Origin: Agapetus fuscipes
Taxonomy: Eukaryota > Arthropoda > Insecta > Trichoptera > Glossosomatidae
Length of the DNA: 64,000 nucleotides
Direction: 5' to 3'
Assembly: GCA_951799405.1 (NCBI GenBank)
Contig: OX637363.1
Span: 3,100,001 to 3,164,000 of the forward strand
Position numbers and translations under genes: made by a program. Every line of letters starts with the position of its first letter. Positions within the stretch are counted from its first letter, which is position 1. Below the pieces are notes generated by a model, which saw only the letters and a program-made list of their open reading frames with translations, was not told where the DNA came from and did no database searches. Positions 45,157 through 55,915 of this stretch are shown here, piece by piece.

Positions 45157-45385
45157 TAAACTTTATTTACTTCTTGCCGTCTCACCTCCATCCTCCAGAA
45201 CTCTCTATTTTGTGCAGCCTCAGTCCATGGTCCACTGACACCTAGGACTTCAGCGTCATGTGTAATTTGTTACAGTTTTTAAGTTTTAGATTAAGGCGCT
45301 ACAGCTCCAACTACTATTTAGGAGTATTGTTTTACACCTTAGTTGTTTGTTACTCTACTAAACTCTACATTAGCTATTAATGTAC

Positions 45386-45857
45386 TGTTATGTAAATATA
45401 AATATTGAAATAAGTATGGATAATTATAGTTATAAGAATCCTCAAAAGTATTGGTAGGTAAGATCGATAATTATGTATAAGTGTAGAATTCTCTAGGCTA
45501 AGTAGGTATTTGTTATAATTATAGGAATACTGTATTGCATTGGTAGGTAGGATTTTGGTTGTGTCTAGGTAGTACGTGAAACATCGAGAAGTAATAATTA
45601 CTCTGGAACCTTCTAGCAACTATAGGTCTAGATTATACTGCTCTAAAGAGTATAAAGGGTGCAAATGGCCTGCAGAGCGGCCAGTATCATAGAGACTTAC
45701 AAACACATCGAAGTCATCTGATCAGTGAACCAAAACCAAGTGGAATAATCGAGAAAGTAGTGTGAAAATAAATTTTGTAACTGTGTAAAATAAATAACTA
45801 TTGAAGAAGACCTGTGTATTTTTAATTTGAAGACAATTGAACCCTAATTTCGTAACA
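45386..45857 (+). repeat. 5' LTR (472 bp)
   Basis: Starts TGTTATGTAA and ends TTTCGTAACA, a 7-bp terminal inverted repeat TGTTATG/CGTAACA with one mismatch. TATAAA lies at 45651-45656 and probably drives transcription from about 30 bp downstream. AATAAA lies at 45767 and 45789. By reading both copies I found no difference from the 3' LTR. Confidence 0.93.
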
Positions 45858-45859
45858 AT

Positions 45860-45874
45860 TGGCGTCAGGTGCGG
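45860..45874 (+). promoter_or_regulatory. Primer-binding site for a tRNA
   Basis: TGGCGTCAGGTGCGG begins 2 nt after the LTR and starts with TGG, the complement of tRNA CCA-3'. I cannot name the tRNA without a tRNA set. Confidence 0.7.
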
Positions 45875-46272
45875 AATTGTCAAGAAAAATTAAGATCTTC
45901 TGTCTAAAAATAAATAAAATAAATTAAATAGTGTTAAAATGAACTTTATTCAAATTGAACTTTGTGTGAACTGACTTTTGTGAAAACAAGTGTTTAAATA
46001 AATTTTTGTTAAAAGAAAAGACGCAAAAGCAAGTTGCTTATAAATTCTGGAACATCATATGGAACATAATTCTGGACATAACATAATGACTATTTTACCG
46101 CATTGAGAAAGTCATCAAATTGGACCATAGTTTTTTTATTATTGTGTGTGATTAAAAAAATAAAATAAATAAATAAAAAAAATCTTGAAAAATATTACAA
46201 AAGAACGTTCCAGATTCATCGAGAAAAAGTTTTTGAATAACTATCCTTTGTTTACAAGTGTGTGAATGTACA

Positions 46273-46314
46273 TTAAGGTGGTACGACACATCGATGTACG
46301 AGTCGCCACCTTAA
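46273..46314 (+). promoter_or_regulatory. Leader hairpin with palindromic loop
   Basis: A 9-bp stem TTAAGGTGG/CCACCTTAA, a TA bulge and a 4-bp stem CGAC/GTCG enclose a loop holding the 10-nt palindrome ACATCGATGT. It resembles dimer-initiation hairpins of retroviral leaders. The structure is seen; the role is inferred. Confidence 0.5.
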
Positions 46315-46562
46315 GTACCTACCTGTGTGTTTGAAAGACTTGAGACGAAATAAATAATTATGTACTATCAGACATTATTATGTTAAAAATATTGGTGATT
46401 TAAAAATAAATATTAAAAGACAGTACCTACCAATCAGTGTAATCAGATAAATTATTATTTTGCTAAAGTACGTATTCAAAACAGCTATATATATAAAACT
46501 CAAAACTTGTATTAAATAAATTTAAAAATATTTTCGTTTTGAAGTTTGTTAAAATAAAAAAA

Positions 46563-47873
46563 ATGGCTAAGGTGAACATCAAGGACCTCAAAGTCACTGA
46601 GCTTAAGAATGAGCTTCTGGAAAGGGACCTGGAGACCTCAGGAGGGAAGGCGGCCTTACAAGCACGCCTCATGGAAGCTCTAGAACAGTCAGGCGAAGAC
46701 CCGGCATACTTTGTCATGGCATCTGGGGGAGACCGCGCCCTTGAGGAACTGAACCTCAGCATCAACAGTAACCTGACAGGACTGAAGACTGAGATGGCTG
46801 ACAACGCCAAGACCCTGAAGGAGGACCTGACCGGGCTGAAGGAGGACCTGGCAACCATGGAAGAGAAAATGACCACCAACCTGACCGGGCTGGAGGAGAA
46901 GGTGACGGGGCTGGAGGAAAAGATGAACAGCAACATGACCAGCCTGAAGGAAGAGATGACTGAGGCACTGGAGAAGAAAGTGGCAGAAAGCTCGCGAGCA
47001 ATGTCGGAGATTGAGGCCCGTGTGGCAAGCCTGGAGGACCGTCTGCGTGCCGAGCTGGCTGACAAGTGCCAGATGGAGTCCACCAGAATCTCCCCCAAAG
47101 GCGGCCTTCACGACGAGACCGACCAGGGATGCTCAACTCCAACCAGGGTCACAAGAGGGGATGATGACCCTTCCCTAGCCAAGCACAACCTCCCAACCTT
47201 CGACGGGAAGACGTCGTGGGAGGAATACTTGACCCTCTTTGAGACGGCTGCCATGATGGGAGCCTGGAGCCAGCAGAAGAAGGCTTCGGTTCTCAGCCTG
47301 TCGCTCCGAGGAGACGCTCTCAGGGTTCTGCAGGCCATACCCCTGGACAACCGTGGTGACTTTGGGCAGCTGAAGCAGCGCTTGGATATGCGCTATGGCC
47401 ACAAGTGCCTGGAGCAGCTGTACAAGTCACAGCTGAACACAAGGGTGCAGAAGCCCAACGAGAGCCTCCAGGAGTTTGAAATGGACATCGCCCGCCTGGT
47501 ACGAGACGCTTACCCGACAGCCTCCGACGACATCTGTGAGAGCTTGGCAGTGGACAAGTTCCTAAATGGATTGCGGGAATGGGAGACGCAACAAGCCGTA
47601 AAACTGGCCCATCCCAAGGCTTTGAACGAGGCGCTCAGCCAAGCTCTCGAGTTTGAGGCTGTCAAACAGTCCATTAGGGGCCACGCCAGGGTTCGTGCAG
47701 TCGAGGCAGAGGAGGTCAAGCTACCAACAACCGAGGAGTTAATTGAAAAAGTGCTGGAACGTCTGAGACCTCGAAGACGAGACCCACGCTGCTGGAACTG
47801 CGGACAGCTGGGCCACCTTAGCACCAAGTGTCCAAAGCCTCAGAAACCCAGAAAACAGGCTGCGGAAAACTAG
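46563..47873 (+). CDS. gag: Gag polyprotein with SAP-like domain
   Basis: 436 codons from the ATG at 46563 (AAAAAAATGG). Residues 4-45 (IKDLKVTELKNELLERDLET, GGKAALQARLMEAL) look like a SAP domain, a helix-extended-helix motif that binds AT-rich chromatin DNA in other proteins. Residues ~60-165 are a heptad-rich coiled coil built on NLTGLEEK / LKEEM repeats. Next comes a gypsy-type capsid (NLPTFDGKTSWEEYLTLFET, LNGLREWETQ). The CCHC zinc knuckle CWNCGQLGHLSTKC lies near the end. Gag packages the element RNA into particles. The SAP and long coiled coil are additions to the common gypsy Gag plan. The ORF overlaps pol. Confidence 0.93.
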   Translation: MAKVNIKDLKVTELKNELLERDLETSGGKAALQARLMEALEQSGEDPAYFVMASGGDRALEELNLSINSNLTGLKTEMADNAKTLKEDLTGLKEDLATMEEKMTTNLTGLEEKVTGLEEKMNSNMTSLKEEMTEALEKKVAESSRAMSEIEARVASLEDRLRAELADKCQMESTRISPKGGLHDETDQGCSTPTRVTRGDDDPSLAKHNLPTFDGKTSWEEYLTLFETAAMMGAWSQQKKASVLSLSLRGDALRVLQAIPLDNRGDFGQLKQRLDMRYGHKCLEQLYKSQLNTRVQKPNESLQEFEMDIARLVRDAYPTASDDICESLAVDKFLNGLREWETQQAVKLAHPKALNEALSQALEFEAVKQSIRGHARVRAVEAEEVKLPTTEELIEKVLERLRPRRRDPRCWNCGQLGHLSTKCPKPQKPRKQAAEN

Positions 47874-50800
47874 AAAGGGTTAATGGGAAGGGGCAACCGT
47901 TGACCCGCGCTGGAGAGGCCCTGAAATCTGCTGCTACTGTCGCAACCGTGAGAGGAAAAGCCAGCAGCATTTTTATCAATGGCATAATAGATGGAGTAAC
48001 TCGTGAACTACTGGTGGACACGGGAGCAACCAGGACAATTCTGAGACGCGACATAGTGGCACGAGGCAAACAGATTGCACCAACAAAATGGTCTCTGCAC
48101 ACCGCCACGGGAGAGTCAGCACAGGTGTATGGGGAGACGATTGCCACCTTCCAAATTGGCAGCACCACTTTTGATCATCGGACATTGGTGGCCAACATTG
48201 AAGAAGACGTTATATTGGGAATGGACATACTGGACAGATTTGGGTGCAGCTTAAATTTAAAAAAAGGTGCCATTAAAATTGAAAATGAAGAAGTCATCCT
48301 GCAAAGACGGAAAGAACTGGCTGCACGTGTGATCCTAGCCAAGAATACCGAAGTGAAGGGGCGATCCGAGATGATAGTGAGTGCCCGCCTGGATTCCAGT
48401 AGTACAAATGACCAAATCTGTATGATAGAACCGGAGAACATGGACAATGTTAACAAAGGAGTCATGGTGGCAAGAACAGTGATTCGCGCGCAGGAGACCA
48501 TTCCTGTCAAGATCATGAATGTGAACAGCTACCCAGTTAAAATGAATGAAGGTTTTGTTTTGGGCAGATGTGAGAGGATAACTTCCATTGTGCAACAGAT
48601 GACAAACATGACATGCGAGGGAAGAAAATTATCGACACAATTGGAAACCCTGGTCCACGACGCTTCCCAAGGTCTAACCGAGGAAAACAGACTTAGAGTG
48701 AGGAGTTTGATCTGCCGCTACCAGAACATTTTCGAGGACTCTAATGGCCGTCTGGGAAGAACCAAGGTAGTGCGACATAGCATAGACACCGGAGAAGCAA
48801 GACCAATCAAACAGGCTCCAAGAAGACTACCCTTTGCAAAGCGGGAAGAAGCCGACAAGATCATCAAAGACATGAGCAAGGATGGCATCATAGAACCATC
48901 AAGTAGCCCTTGGACATCCCCGGTGGTACTGGTGAAAAAGAAGGATGGTACCACGAGATTTTGTGTGGACTACAGACTGCTCAACGATGTTACGAAAAAG
49001 GATAGTTACCCTCTGCCAAGGATTGACGACACCTTGGACACATTGGCAGGATGCACCATTTTTTCCACATTGGACCTGAAAAGTGGCTACTGGCAAGTTG
49101 AATTGGATGCCAAAGATAAGGAGAAAACGGCATTCTCGACTGGATCTGGACTTTGGCAGTTCACCGTGATGCCATTTGGCTTATGCAATGCCCCCGCCAC
49201 GTTTGAAAGGCTGATGGAGAATGTGCTGCGAGGACTGTCATGGGAAACCTGCCTTGTATACTTGGATGACATAATCATCCTGGGAAAGGACTTCAACCAT
49301 CAGTTGAGAAATCTGGAGCAAGTTTTCGGGCGACTACAAGACGCTGGACTGAAGCTCAACCCGAAAAAGTGTAACCTGTTCAAGAAACAAGTAAATTACC
49401 TGGGACACATAGTTTCTCAACGTGGAGTTGAAGTTGACCCTGCCAAAATCAAGGCAGTAAGAGACTGGCCCGTGCTGAAGGACAAACATGAAACTAGGAG
49501 CTTCCTGGGGCTGTGCACTTATTACAGGAGGTTTGTGCCAAGATTTGCGGACATTGCAAAACCGCTCACCAAGCTTACGGAAGAAAACACTCGCTTCCAT
49601 TGGAGTGATTCCTGCGCACAAGCATTTGAAGAGCTTAAGGGAAGATTAACAAGTGCCCCCATCTTGAGCTACCCACGAAAAGATGGAAAGTTCATCCTGG
49701 ATACCGACGCTAGTAATGTGGGGATAGGAGGCGTCCTTTCCCAAATACAGGATGGGCATGAGACTGTTCTGGGTTACTTCAGTAAAGTGCTTTCCAAGCC
49801 AGAACGAAATTATTGCGTGACCAGACGAGAGCTTCTTGCCGTGATAAAATCAGTGGAACACTTCCGCAAATACTTGTACGGGAGAAAATTCACACTACGG
49901 ACTGATCATGCTGCACTGGTTTGGCTTCTGAAATTCAAAAACCCAGAAGGGCAAGTGGCTAGATGGATTGAAAGGCTCCAGGAGTATGATTATGACTCCG
50001 AACATAGACCTGGCACGCTTCATCGAAATGCGGATGCATTATCCAGACGACCATGCGCCAGTGACTGCAAACATTGCAGCAAGATGGAGGACAAGGTAGC
50101 AATTGTCCAAAGGACGACCACCGAAGATGAGGACTGGCAAGATGAAAAATTGGCGCAAGACCAACTGAATGATCCGGACTTGAAGTATGTGATGGAATGG
50201 GCGCGAGAAGGAGAAAGGCCAACCTGGGAAAAACTCGCCCCCTTATCACCAACTGTCAAGGCTTATTGGGCTCAATGGGGATCCATAGTGATAGAAGGAG
50301 GGTTTCTGAAACGAAAGATCGAGAAGGAAGACGGCACACTTAGAAGAAAGCAAACCCTCGTTCCGAGGAGCCGAGTACCGGAAATCCTTGGACTGCTGCA
50401 TGGAGGAACTTCTGGAGGACATCTAGGCGTTAAGAAGACGCTGGAGAAAGTGAAAGAGCGATTTTACTGGATCAACTGCAGCGAAGACGTCAAAGATTGG
50501 TGTCGAAAATGTGTAACCTGTGCAACGGCCAATGGACCGCAAAGGAAAAGGCGAGCACCAATGCGTCAGTACAATGTTGGCAGCCCCTTTGAAAGAATTG
50601 CCATCGACATAGCTGGCCCATTTCCTACAACTGAGAAGGGTAACAAGTACATCATGGTGGTGATGGATTACTTCAGCAAGTGGGTGGAAGCTTACTCAAT
50701 CCCTAACCAAGAGGCCGTAACCGTGACTGAAGTTCTAGTTACCGAATTTATCAGCAGGTTTGGCGTACCCCTGGAATTACATTCTGATCAGGGAAGGAAC

Positions 50801-52090
50801 TTTGAAGCTGCTATCTTCCAGCAAATGTGTGAGCGGCTAGGAATCTACAAGACCAGGACCACTGCGCTACATCCACAGTCTGATGGAATGGTGGAAAGGA
50901 TGAACCGTACCGTGGGGAGGTACTTAGCCAAAGTAGTGTCCAGCCATCAGCGGGACTGGGACCGACATCTGCCTTTGTTCTTATTGGCTTACCGGTCGGC
51001 TGTTCAGGAAACGACGAAGAAGACTCCCAGCAGCATACTGTTTGGGCGAGAAATGCGACTTCCTTGTGATCTCAAATTTGGCTGCAAACCAGGTGAAGAC
51101 CTAGCCGGAGAAGACTATGTGACAGACCTTCGCAGGAGGCTGGATGACATCCATGATCAGGTCCGCATGAACATCGGGGAAGCCAGCGATCAAATGAAGG
51201 AGCGCTATGACACCAGAGCTGACAGCATGGGGTACAAAGCTGGTGACTGGGTGTGGCTTTTTGACCCCAAGAGGCGCCAAGGATACTGTCCGAAACTTCA
51301 GCGTTCCTGGGACGGGCCGTACGAGATCTTGGAGCGCATCAACGATGTGGTCTACCGCATAAAAAAGAGACCAAACGGAAAACCAAGGGTCGTGCACTAC
51401 AATCGCCTCTCACCATACCTAGGCAATAATGATGACCAACCAGCCCAAAAAGTACGACAGTGCGTCGCATCCGAAAGATCACCAGCCTTTGAGACGTTTT
51501 GGGAGAACGCGAAGGCAGGGCAGAAGTTTCGCCATGGAGTGACCACAGAAGTCCACAAGGACTTATTTGAGGTCACTAGGGACCACACACTGGCATGCAG
51601 TGTACCGGAAGATCTAGATATGTCTAGAGGAATTGCACGGGTCTTCCGATACAAATTCGGAGAACCGCAACCCTCGAGCAGCCCGCAAGGAAGAGCTCTG
51701 AGACTACCGAAGGGGCGTCAACAAGCATACTGCCTGGTTGTCCCGGATTCCAGCAACCTGGAAGATGACTACAAGGCATTGTGGGACGGCCTTGTTGAGC
51801 TGCGTGACTACATGTTGGAGGATCAGCAGGCGCGTCTGGCAATACCGAAGATGGGTGGCGGCCGCGCTAATCGAGACTGGCGGATAATCCGGAGTATGAT
51901 TGAAGCAGTGTTCTCGGGAGTCGGCATCAGCGTCATGGTGTGCTGCGAGCAAGCGCAGCCGAGAGCCAGTGGGGAGAAATCCGTGGACTGCCACTTCTTC
52001 CTGACCACAGGGTGTCGACGTGGATCAGCATGCCCCTACCTACACAGAGTCAAGACTGTTCCGGGACGAAACAGTCTAGGTGGGGGGTAG
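47822..52090 (+). CDS. pol: Pol polyprotein: PR-RT-RH-IN plus macrodomain and CCCH finger
   Basis: Open in the -1 frame relative to gag from 47822 to TAG at 52088. Residue 1 is counted here from 47828. Protease LLVDTGATRTIL (D64). RT ~330-510 with FCVDYRLLND and catalytic YLDD 478-481. RNase H ~620-740 (LDTDASNVG, RTDHAALVW, ADALSRR). Integrase with HHCC finger (HGGTSGGHLG near 857, CRKCVTC near 895) and D-D-E core (IAIDIAGPF, LHSDQG, MVERMNR). C-terminal GPY-like module WDGPYEILERI ~1155. Beyond integrase, ~1240-1372 matches a TARG1-type macrodomain (VHKDLFEVTRDHTLACS, MSRGIARVFRYKFG, ARLAIPKMGGG). Residues 1388-1406 form a CCCH finger (C-x7-C-x5-C-x3-H). No env follows. Confidence 0.93.
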   Translation, partial: HQVSKASETQKTGCGKLERVNGKGQPLTRAGEALKSAATVATVRGKASSIFINGIIDGVTRELLVDTGATRTILRRDIVARGKQIAPTKWSLHTATGESAQVYGETIATFQIGSTTFDHRTLVANIEEDVILGMDILDRFGCSLNLKKGAIKIENEEVILQRRKELAARVILAKNTEVKGRSEMIVSARLDSSSTNDQICMIEPENMDNVNKGVMVARTVIRAQETIPVKIMNVNSYPVKMNEGFVLGRCERITSIVQQMTNMTCEGRKLSTQLETLVHDASQGLTEENRLRVRSLICRYQNIFEDSNGRLGRTKVVRHSIDTGEARPIKQAPRRLPFAKREEADKIIKDMSKDGIIEPSSSPWTSPVVLVKKKDGTTRFCVDYRLLNDVTKKDSYPLPRIDDTLDTLAGCTIFSTLDLKSGYWQVELDAKDKEKTAFSTGSGLWQFTVMPFGLCNAPATFERLMENVLRGLSWETCLVYLDDIIILGKDFNHQLRNLEQVFGRLQDAGLKLNPKKCNLFKKQVNYLGHIVSQRGVEVDPAKIKAVRDWPVLKDKHETRSFLGLCTYYRRFVPRFADIAKPLTKLTEENTRFHWSDSCAQAFEELKGRLTSAPILSYPRKDGKFILDTDASNVGIGGVLSQIQDGHETVLGYFSKVLSKPERNYCVTRRELLAVIKSVEHFRKYLYGRKFTLRTDHAALVWLLKFKNPEGQVARWIERLQEYDYDSEHRPGTLHRNADALSRRPCASDCKHCSKMEDKVAIVQRTTTEDEDWQDEKLAQDQLNDPDLKYVMEWAREGERPTWEKLAPLSPTVKAYWAQWGSIVIEGGFLKRKIEKEDGTLRRKQTLVPRSRVPEILGLLHGGTSGGHLGVKKTLEKVKERFYWINCSEDVKDWCRKCVTCATANGPQRKRRAPMRQYNVGSPFERIAIDIAGPFPTTEKGNKYIMVVMDYFSKWVEAYSIPNQEAVTVTEVLVTEFISRFGVPLELHSDQGRNFEAAIFQQMCERLGIYKTRTTALHPQSDGMVERMNRTVGRYLAKVVSSHQRDWDRHLPLFLLAYRSAVQETTKKTPSSILFGREMRLPCDLKFGCKPGEDLAGEDYVTDLRRRLDDIHDQVRMNIGEASDQMKERYDTRADSMGYKAGDWVWLFDPKRRQGYCPKLQRSWDGPYEILERINDVVYRIKKRPNGKPRVVHYNRLSPYLGNNDDQPAQKVRQCVASERSPAFETFWENAKAGQKFRHGVTTEVHKDLFEVTRDHTLACSVPEDLDMSRGIARVFRYKFGEPQPSSSPQGRALRLPKGRQQAYCLVVPDSSNLEDDYKALWDGLVELRDYMLEDQQARLAIPKMGGGRANRDWRIIRSMIEAVFSGVGISVMVCCEQAQPRASGEKSVDCHFFLTTGCRRGSACPYLHRVKTVPGRNSLGGG
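47864..47906 (+). promoter_or_regulatory. Candidate -1 ribosomal frameshift signal
   Basis: GGAAAAC (47864-47870) directly precedes the gag stop TAG. Six nt later a stem GGGTTAA/TTGACCC (47877-47883 with 47900-47906, one G-U pair) could pause the ribosome. GGAAAAC is close to the known GGGAAAC class but not canonical; an alternative slip site is A-AAA in AGAAAACAG (47850-47858). Position and frame are right. Confidence 0.5.
52077..52090 (+). promoter_or_regulatory. Polypurine tract
   Basis: AGGTGGGGGGTAG ends exactly at the 3' LTR. Such purine runs prime plus-strand DNA. It overlaps the last codons of pol. Confidence 0.85.
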
Positions 52091-52562
52091 TGTTATGTAA
52101 ATATAAATATTGAAATAAGTATGGATAATTATAGTTATAAGAATCCTCAAAAGTATTGGTAGGTAAGATCGATAATTATGTATAAGTGTAGAATTCTCTA
52201 GGCTAAGTAGGTATTTGTTATAATTATAGGAATACTGTATTGCATTGGTAGGTAGGATTTTGGTTGTGTCTAGGTAGTACGTGAAACATCGAGAAGTAAT
52301 AATTACTCTGGAACCTTCTAGCAACTATAGGTCTAGATTATACTGCTCTAAAGAGTATAAAGGGTGCAAATGGCCTGCAGAGCGGCCAGTATCATAGAGA
52401 CTTACAAACACATCGAAGTCATCTGATCAGTGAACCAAAACCAAGTGGAATAATCGAGAAAGTAGTGTGAAAATAAATTTTGTAACTGTGTAAAATAAAT
52501 AACTATTGAAGAAGACCTGTGTATTTTTAATTTGAAGACAATTGAACCCTAATTTCGTAACA
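52091..52562 (+). repeat. 3' LTR (472 bp)
   Basis: Same length and, as far as I can read, same sequence as the 5' LTR (TATAAA at 52356, AATAAA copies near 52472 and 52494). Followed by GTAC and unique intron sequence. Confidence 0.93.
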
Positions 52563-52566
52563 GTAC

Positions 52567-53194: not shown

Positions 53195-53940
53195 CCGGTC
53201 CTTAGTCTAGTGGTTAACACTTCTGACTCGTAAATGGAAGGTTGAGGGTTCGAATCCTGGCAGAGTACAAAAAATATACAATTTATGTTTTCAAATACGC
53301 TCTTCGCTGGGTTGAAAAATCCATATACCTGTACGAAATATTGGTCACCAAGGGTCTATACAGCCTTACAGCAACTGGGTCTTCCATGAGAACTGATGCT
53401 TTGCAGCGATGACCAAGCTCGTAAAAAGTCCGGTCGATAGCTCAATTCGTAGAATGCTTGCATTCCATGCCGAGAGCAAGGGTTCGATCCCAAAGTTTAC
53501 TCAGCCTTCACAAGAAATGAGAACCAGCCGTGGGAGCTGGGAAACCCCCACGTCAACAGAAAGTGGATGATGTGAGGCCGGCCCACTTACCCATAAAAAA
53601 AAAGAGAGGGGCTCCAAAACGTTGGGGAACGAGCCACATTCACCACAGTGTTTGGCAATCGTGCGTTTGCTGTTGCGGGTCCCTCTTCGTAGAACCAGCT
53701 GCCACCGGAAGTTCGAGCTTCAAAATCCAGGGAAAACCTTAAAAAAACCCTCAAACACACTACTTCGCCGCGATAACACAAAAAGCGCCCTTGGAGTGAC
53801 AATCTTCATGAAACGGCGCTATACCAAGTCATCATCTTCATCATCATCATCATCAAATAGGTCCCGAATCGCCACATGCGACCCTTTCGGGGATAACGCA
53901 GGCAAGATGTTACACTATATGTAGTAGTATTAGTTGCGTT
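53195..53940 (+). repeat. Dimeric SINE (A+B) with L2-type LINE insertion
   Basis: A unit (53195-53420), junction GCTCGTAAAAAGTCCGGTCG, B unit to CCATAAAAAA (53600). Then about 257 bp of LINE end, after which B resumes at AAATAGGTCCCGAATCGCCA and ends TAGTATTAGTTGCG. Confidence 0.85.
53605..53857 (+). pseudogene. L2/CR1-type LINE 3' end
   Basis: It encodes KRWGTSHIHHSVWQSCVCCC-like frame-broken sequence and, in another frame, PATGSSSFKIQG, TLKKPSNTLLR and SALGVTIFMKRRYTK. It ends in a CAT microsatellite. AAAGCGCCCTTGGAGTG and ACGGCGCTATACCAAG match the end of the LINE at 24920-25475. Confidence 0.7.
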
Positions 53941-53989: not shown

Positions 53990-54286
<297 letters not shown>

Positions 54287-55589: not shown

Positions 55590-55915
55590 TTTTTTTAAGA
55601 AACCCTGTGCAGGAGACTCTCTAGATTTCAGAGACTCTTGGGGTCTATGACACTTGTTGTAGTGCCGCAGAGGTGTCTACGAGCTTGATCGTCGCTACCA
55701 AGCGCCAATACTCAAGCAAGACCCAGTTGCTGTAAGGCTGGATGGACCTTTAGTGACCGGTCTTTGGTAAAGGTTTTATGAACTTTTCAACCCAGCGAAG
55801 AGCATATTTGAAAATATAAATGGTATTTTTTTGTGCTCCGCCGGGGTTCGTACCCACAACCTTCCATTTACGAGTCCAAAGTGCTGCTACTGGACTACAG
55901 ATCGGTCACACCACA
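55590..55915 (-). repeat. SINE-A copy, complete
   Basis: Antisense, full-length from TTTTTTTTAAGAAACCCTGT to the head complement CTACAGATCGGTC. The B box GGGGTTCGTACCC is in complement near 55845. Confidence 0.85.

Follow-up and report, generated by a model that had tools for sequence, protein, structure and literature searches.

Chromoviruses are Ty3/gypsy retrotransposons in which a chromodomain is fused behind the integrase, and macrodomains are a tool employed by some RNA viruses against host ADP-ribosylation. The macrodomain of alphavirus nsP3 belongs to a class other than the ALC1-like class that contains TARG1 (OARD1, C6orf130). In this study, we analyzed a 64,000-nucleotide stretch of the Agapetus fuscipes genome (contig OX637363.1, positions 3,100,001 to 3,164,000, forward strand; hereafter the window), in which a complete Ty3/gypsy long terminal repeat (LTR) retrotransposon at 45386-52562 was found to encode a TARG1-type macrodomain at the end of Pol. 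As in chromoviruses, an extra domain lies behind the integrase; however, it is here a macrodomain with a CCCH zinc finger instead of a chromodomain, and a role in targeting is putative. Compared with TARG1, the domain is part of a retroelement Pol, has the CCCH finger behind it, and, in the family of the window element (hereafter W), lacks the catalytic pair.

Fish epsilon-like sequences have been described, in a passage of PMC4977317 that cites work from 2009, as having macro domain proteins in additional open reading frames (ORFs). The likeness is that in both cases a macro domain is found in an LTR retroelement; the epsilon-like sequences are described there with additional ORFs, whereas in our element the domain is fused in frame to a Ty3/gypsy Pol. 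Orchid Ty3/gypsy elements carry an AlkB-type N6-methyladenosine (m6A) demethylase domain, for which in vitro assays are reported in the excerpted text of PMC9289625. Both are Ty3/gypsy elements with an acquired RNA-modification-enzyme domain, but, as far as that excerpt goes, the orchid elements differ in the domain itself, its placement in an additional ORF, the plant host, and the in vitro assays. Alphavirus nsP3 has a macro domain together with a zinc-binding domain (PMC7468284, in excerpt), but belongs to an RNA virus. Domain acquisition by Ty3/gypsy elements is already known from the orchid case; no report of a Ty3/gypsy macrodomain was found among the titles and abstract openings of literature listings, several of which were covered in their top part.

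Results

The first-pass annotation of the window had proposed a TARG1/OARD1-like macrodomain at the end of the Ty3/gypsy Pol, and this proposal was borne out by both sequence homology and predicted fold. The domain (Pol residues 1236-1378; 51533..51961, + strand, as are all features below) matched OARD1/TARG1 with a phmmer E-value of 7.7e-11, and chance similarity was rejected by sequence shuffles. The two comparisons that the annotation had recommended, with Pfam PF01661 and with TARG1, gave divided results: in a Pfam search the window piece had no PF01661 match at E 10, whereas the AlphaFold2 model was a confident predicted macro fold with TARG1 as its best structural match. When PF01661 was applied to five pieces from relatives, three scored above the cut-off, one scored below it, and one had no match; this cut-off is a profile threshold and not a defining trait of the macro fold. 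Among viral structures (BFVD), the best match of the window model was A0A8E0KJF2, a putative VP8 of Kadipiro virus, at 26% identity. Behind the macrodomain, a CCCH zinc finger (C-x7-C-x5-C-x3-H, Pol residues 1388-1406; 51989..52045) was recognized by PF00642 at 21.5 bits (cut-off 20.5), with the expected C-x7/8-C-x5-C-x3-H spacing. A chromodomain was considered and rejected; the C-terminal 226 amino acids gave eight Pfam families at E 10, all of them zinc-finger or Torus models.

When Pol residues 1040-1420 served as the query against proteins, 305 matched at E <= 0.001, of which the best 120 were analyzed. These listed relatives, some of them beetle records, included many proteins of Aromia moschata, two of Molorchus minor, one of Callosobruchus maculatus, and proteins from other sources; those labelled Erysiphe pulchra and Klebsiella pneumoniae are probably contamination. 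Homology to the macrodomain was present in all 120, although partial in six; because the query region contained the domain, the list favours carriers and cannot show how frequent the domain is among neighbouring elements. The CCCH finger, judged by eye in the 24 relatives of alignment A2, was complete in 16, absent or broken in 7, and cut off in 1. These data show that in one Ty3/gypsy lineage Pol ends in an OARD1/TARG1-type macrodomain, which comes right behind the integrase and in many members precedes a CCCH finger. The fusion, which had been set apart from any standard Ty3/gypsy element, is thus real, but it is the property of a whole lineage rather than a one-off. PF01661 appeared in the precomputed domains of none of the 120 listed relatives (0/120), indicating that automatic annotation misses the domain. 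A narrower protein search, with only the macrodomain region of the full Pol, gave none among 134 candidates. Alignment A2 was also used to scan viral and prokaryote contigs, where it produced 14 and 26 pattern matches, respectively, with 0 confirmed.

Alignment with TARG1 placed Pro1306 (codon at 51743) at Lys84 and Ala1347 (51866) at Asp125, in agreement with the earlier observation that the Lys and Asp of TARG1 are replaced by Pro and Ala. Moreover, His32 was replaced by Cys1257 (51596) and Ser35 by Pro1260 (51605), and D20, G43, I44, G121, and G123 were retained. Residue numbers follow the PDB alignment and the TARG1 positions; D20, H32, and S35 are presumed to have pocket roles in TARG1. 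The W domain thereby lacks the catalytic pair of a TARG1-type ADP-ribosylhydrolase, having Pro/Ala instead of Lys84/Asp125. In the excerpted text of PMC7050489, the catalytic pair of TARG1 is given as Lys84 and residue 125 (written Glu125 there), and G43, I44, and G123 are TARG1 mutant sites according to an excerpt of PMC5928194. Judged from the residues, loss of the pair suggests that the domain may now bind something instead of cutting it; the annotation had supposed that it reads rather than removes ADP-ribose, and we likewise infer that it may. When the six partial domains (P0225, P0227, P0233, P0234, P0235, and P0240) were excluded, both catalytic residues were found in 110 of 114 near-complete relatives (exceptions, P0148, P0211, P0127, and P0220) and in 21 of 23 non-redundant ones (<80% identity to each other). 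The nearest public relative among those listed, P0122, has both residues.

The abundance of W was assessed by searching the 618-Mb genome with the W protein. From 1413 first-look candidates, 150 were scored, and all were 99-100% identical, with the match spanning all 226 residues and no stop in 150/150; W thus occupies at least 150 near-identical places. A one-off misassembly was rejected, since the stop-free segment was present at every scored place. A DNA search with 601 integrase-region bases gave 40 scored matches (737 candidates), all 100% identical; these copy numbers are lower bounds. The LTR end was located in 29 of 30 fetched W loci, including the window's own, and in 24 of these 29 the bases beyond it start RTAY. 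Over 1153 bases from the integrase end through the LTR, a comparison of the 30 loci that is informative for same-strand loci alone, zero mismatches to the window were found in L008 (the window's own locus), L002, L004, and L007. The W family is inferred to be young. A 232-amino-acid European Nucleotide Archive record (P0003) was 99% identical, with the same Pro and Ala. Two same-direction W copies (L014 and L015; G000:C3:9050669 and 9055346) lie 4.7 kb apart, and the L014 LTR is followed by bases resembling the internal start of the element, as in a tandem with a common LTR.

Other macrodomain families were found in the same genome by searching with the domain of locus L034; of 935 candidates, 150 were scored and 75 of these matched. 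In the sister family of W, family C (L047-L064, L068-L071), the domain order is the same, with Arg in place of Lys84 and, where the stretch was readable, Ala in place of Asp125; some copies (L049, L050) contain stops. Family A (nine places, L034-L043; for example, L039 at G000:C12:10913250-10913621) belongs to a different gypsy lineage, with the macrodomain placed after RNase H and ahead of integrase. In L038-L041 the domain shares one open frame with reverse transcriptase (RT), RNase H, and integrase, and family A keeps both catalytic residues (LITK with GCGLD or GSGLD). The L034 domain, which has stops on both sides, matched OARD1 at E 2e-19; AlphaFold without an alignment gave no usable model of a family A piece (mean predicted local distance difference test, 37.4). 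In family D (L065-L067; for example, G000:C31:9650200-9654400), the macrodomain occupies the same place in an otherwise long, open Pol but is shortened and eroded, and the domain match is weak (E ~1e-7 in a small search). As for host genes, the second exon of an OARD1-like gene, with Lys and Asp, was found at three places (L072, L073, and L074), two of them on one contig, and its first exon at one (L072). Other PF01661 matches (L031 to L033, of which L031 and L032 were read) are probably macro genes of the host, of the MacroD or GDAP2 type.

P0122 was sister to W plus C (100/99 for RNase H-integrase; 100/97 for the macrodomain). W and C were sisters in the macrodomain tree (100/96), which has no outside root and in which family D forms a very long branch, whereas the RNase H-integrase tree supports this pairing only weakly (80/48). 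Because both families have Ala at D125 and Cys at H32, loss dates most simply to before the W/C split; the weak branch (80/48) leaves room for parallel loss. W and C are 82% identical in the integrase and 52% in the macrodomain. Over 140 gap-free macrodomain codons, the nonsynonymous and synonymous rates (dN and dS) were 0.42 and 2.39, so that dN/dS is ~0.18, a rough value given that dS is near saturation (integrase dS is saturated); the corresponding proportions of differences (pN and pS) were 0.32 and 0.72. These values indicate that the macrodomain is constrained as a protein, more loosely than the integrase. Within-family pN/pS (W macrodomain, 0.05, and integrase, 0.30; C macrodomain, 0.39, integrase, 0.59, and CCCH, 0.61) was not used as evidence, because choosing the 30 W loci by protein score weeds out amino-acid changes, and because the 22 C loci include frameshifted or stopped copies.

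The window element has LTRs, a target-site duplication, gag, and pol in the order protease, RT, RNase H, integrase. Its 472-bp LTRs (5' LTR, TGTTA...TAACA, 45386..45857; 3' LTR, 52091..52562) are identical at 472/472 bases and are flanked by the duplication GTAC (45382..45385 and 52563..52566). A putative primer-binding site (45858..45876) adjoins the 5' LTR. The gag ORF (46539..47873) encodes a SAP domain, Retrotrans_gag, and a CCHC knuckle. The SAP domain stands at the start of Gag (PF02037, E 2.8e-8) and is also found in many listed Aromia relatives. The pol ORF (47828..52090; 1420 amino acids) is in the -1 frame relative to gag and encodes, by Pfam, an aspartyl protease (47975..48238; PF13975), RT (48932..49414; PF00078), RNase H (49601..49987; PF17919/PF17917), and the integrase H2C2 zinc-binding domain (50360..50533; PF17921), core (50585..50860; PF00665), and C-terminal p58_C domain (51314..51415; PF22938). 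A putative polypurine tract (52078..52087) encodes the last glycines of Pol, and the stop codon abuts the LTR. An exon of a protein kinase C-like gene (53993-54286) lies further downstream, ~1.4 kb from the element, and is flanked by inverted repeats of ~200 bp (53218-53423 and 55678-55883) that are 80-89% complementary.

Discussion

Most likely, the macrodomain arrived in this lineage as an ADP-ribose eraser and was turned, in W, into a predicted binding module. An ADP-ribosyl eraser domain would have been acquired from a cellular OARD1-like sequence, and catalysis would have been abandoned in the W/C branch, with selection retaining the fold as a binding module. Macrodomain and CCCH finger may then bind an ADP-ribosylated protein, poly(ADP-ribose), or the element's own RNA, so that either the integrase complex would be tethered to marked chromatin, as the chromodomain does in chromoviruses, or RNA would be held in the particle. 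Taken as a whole, from capture to a tether or RNA holder, this is the scheme toward which we lean, by a little. An excerpt of PMC5928194 describes TARG1 as binding RNA outside the ADP-ribose pocket. In Drosophila without PARP-1, there is a tendency for mobile elements to increase, possibly indirectly, and many of these are gypsy-type (PMC7712786, in excerpt); because gypsy-type elements rise there, a host ADP-ribose layer facing the element is plausible. Several points weigh against reuse as a binding module. According to an excerpt of PMC7050489, the ALC1-like protein SCO6735 is a hydrolase without either catalytic residue, and a missing pair therefore does not prove inactivity. Conversely, because the H32 and S35 positions are also changed, the pocket may no longer accept ADP-ribose at all. 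The case for tethering is one of position, and the dN/dS value is rough. Moreover, with 23 outgroups, the macrodomain has changed faster on the W branch than on that of P0122 (mean of 21.7 versus 12.7 branch-specific differences; RT, 8.4 versus 7.7; integrase, 27.6 versus 20.7), a stronger acceleration than in RT or integrase, which fits partial relaxation.

Were the domain instead an eraser across the whole lineage, it would strip ADP-ribose deposited by host PARPs from the ends of element RNA or from particle proteins, in the manner of macrodomains of some RNA viruses, and W would do so via an altered mechanism. Retention of the pair in nearly all near-complete listed relatives and in family A and the rise of mobile elements in flies without PARP-1 speak for such a counter-defence, as do SCO6735 and the ability of TARG1 to act on nucleic acid ends that bear ADP-ribosylated phosphates (PMC7050489, in excerpt). 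In W, however, the catalytic pair is gone and two further positions have changed, and because W occurs at so many near-identical places, the TARG1 pair is unnecessary for its success; we consider this explanation unlikely. The accelerated W branch and the replaced pocket residues, together with the eroded domain of family D in the other lineage, could also denote a passenger in decay, whose reading frame would stay open for no other reason than that the same ORF continues into the CCCH finger, polypurine tract, and stop codon. Such a vestige is harder still to credit given the W-C dN/dS and the excess of pS over pN, the confident macrodomain model, and the retained loop residues. That the domain immediately follows the C-terminal domain of the integrase in one lineage, and in the other comes just ahead of the integrase, would suit a ligand-free integrase extension serving folding or multimerisation, but a structure-only role would not keep catalytic residues in most relatives, and this we regard as the most doubtful of these explanations.

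A broader form of the captured-eraser reading can be put forward tentatively, as possible rather than probable: insect Ty3/gypsy elements would have taken up TARG1-type macrodomains at two places in Pol and would use them to meet ADP-ribose signalling by the host, mostly as erasers, with a dead reader in W that, together with the CCCH finger, would steer integration or RNA packaging in a chromodomain-like manner. Because pair-keeping and pair-lost forms occur in one genome, nature itself supplies a test of whether retrotransposons are restrained by ADP-ribosylation, and the same contrast tests whether a catalytically dead macrodomain can act as a reader. If uptake at two places, with erasers and a dead reader, is true, it would constitute a new ADP-ribose arm of the conflict between hosts and transposons.
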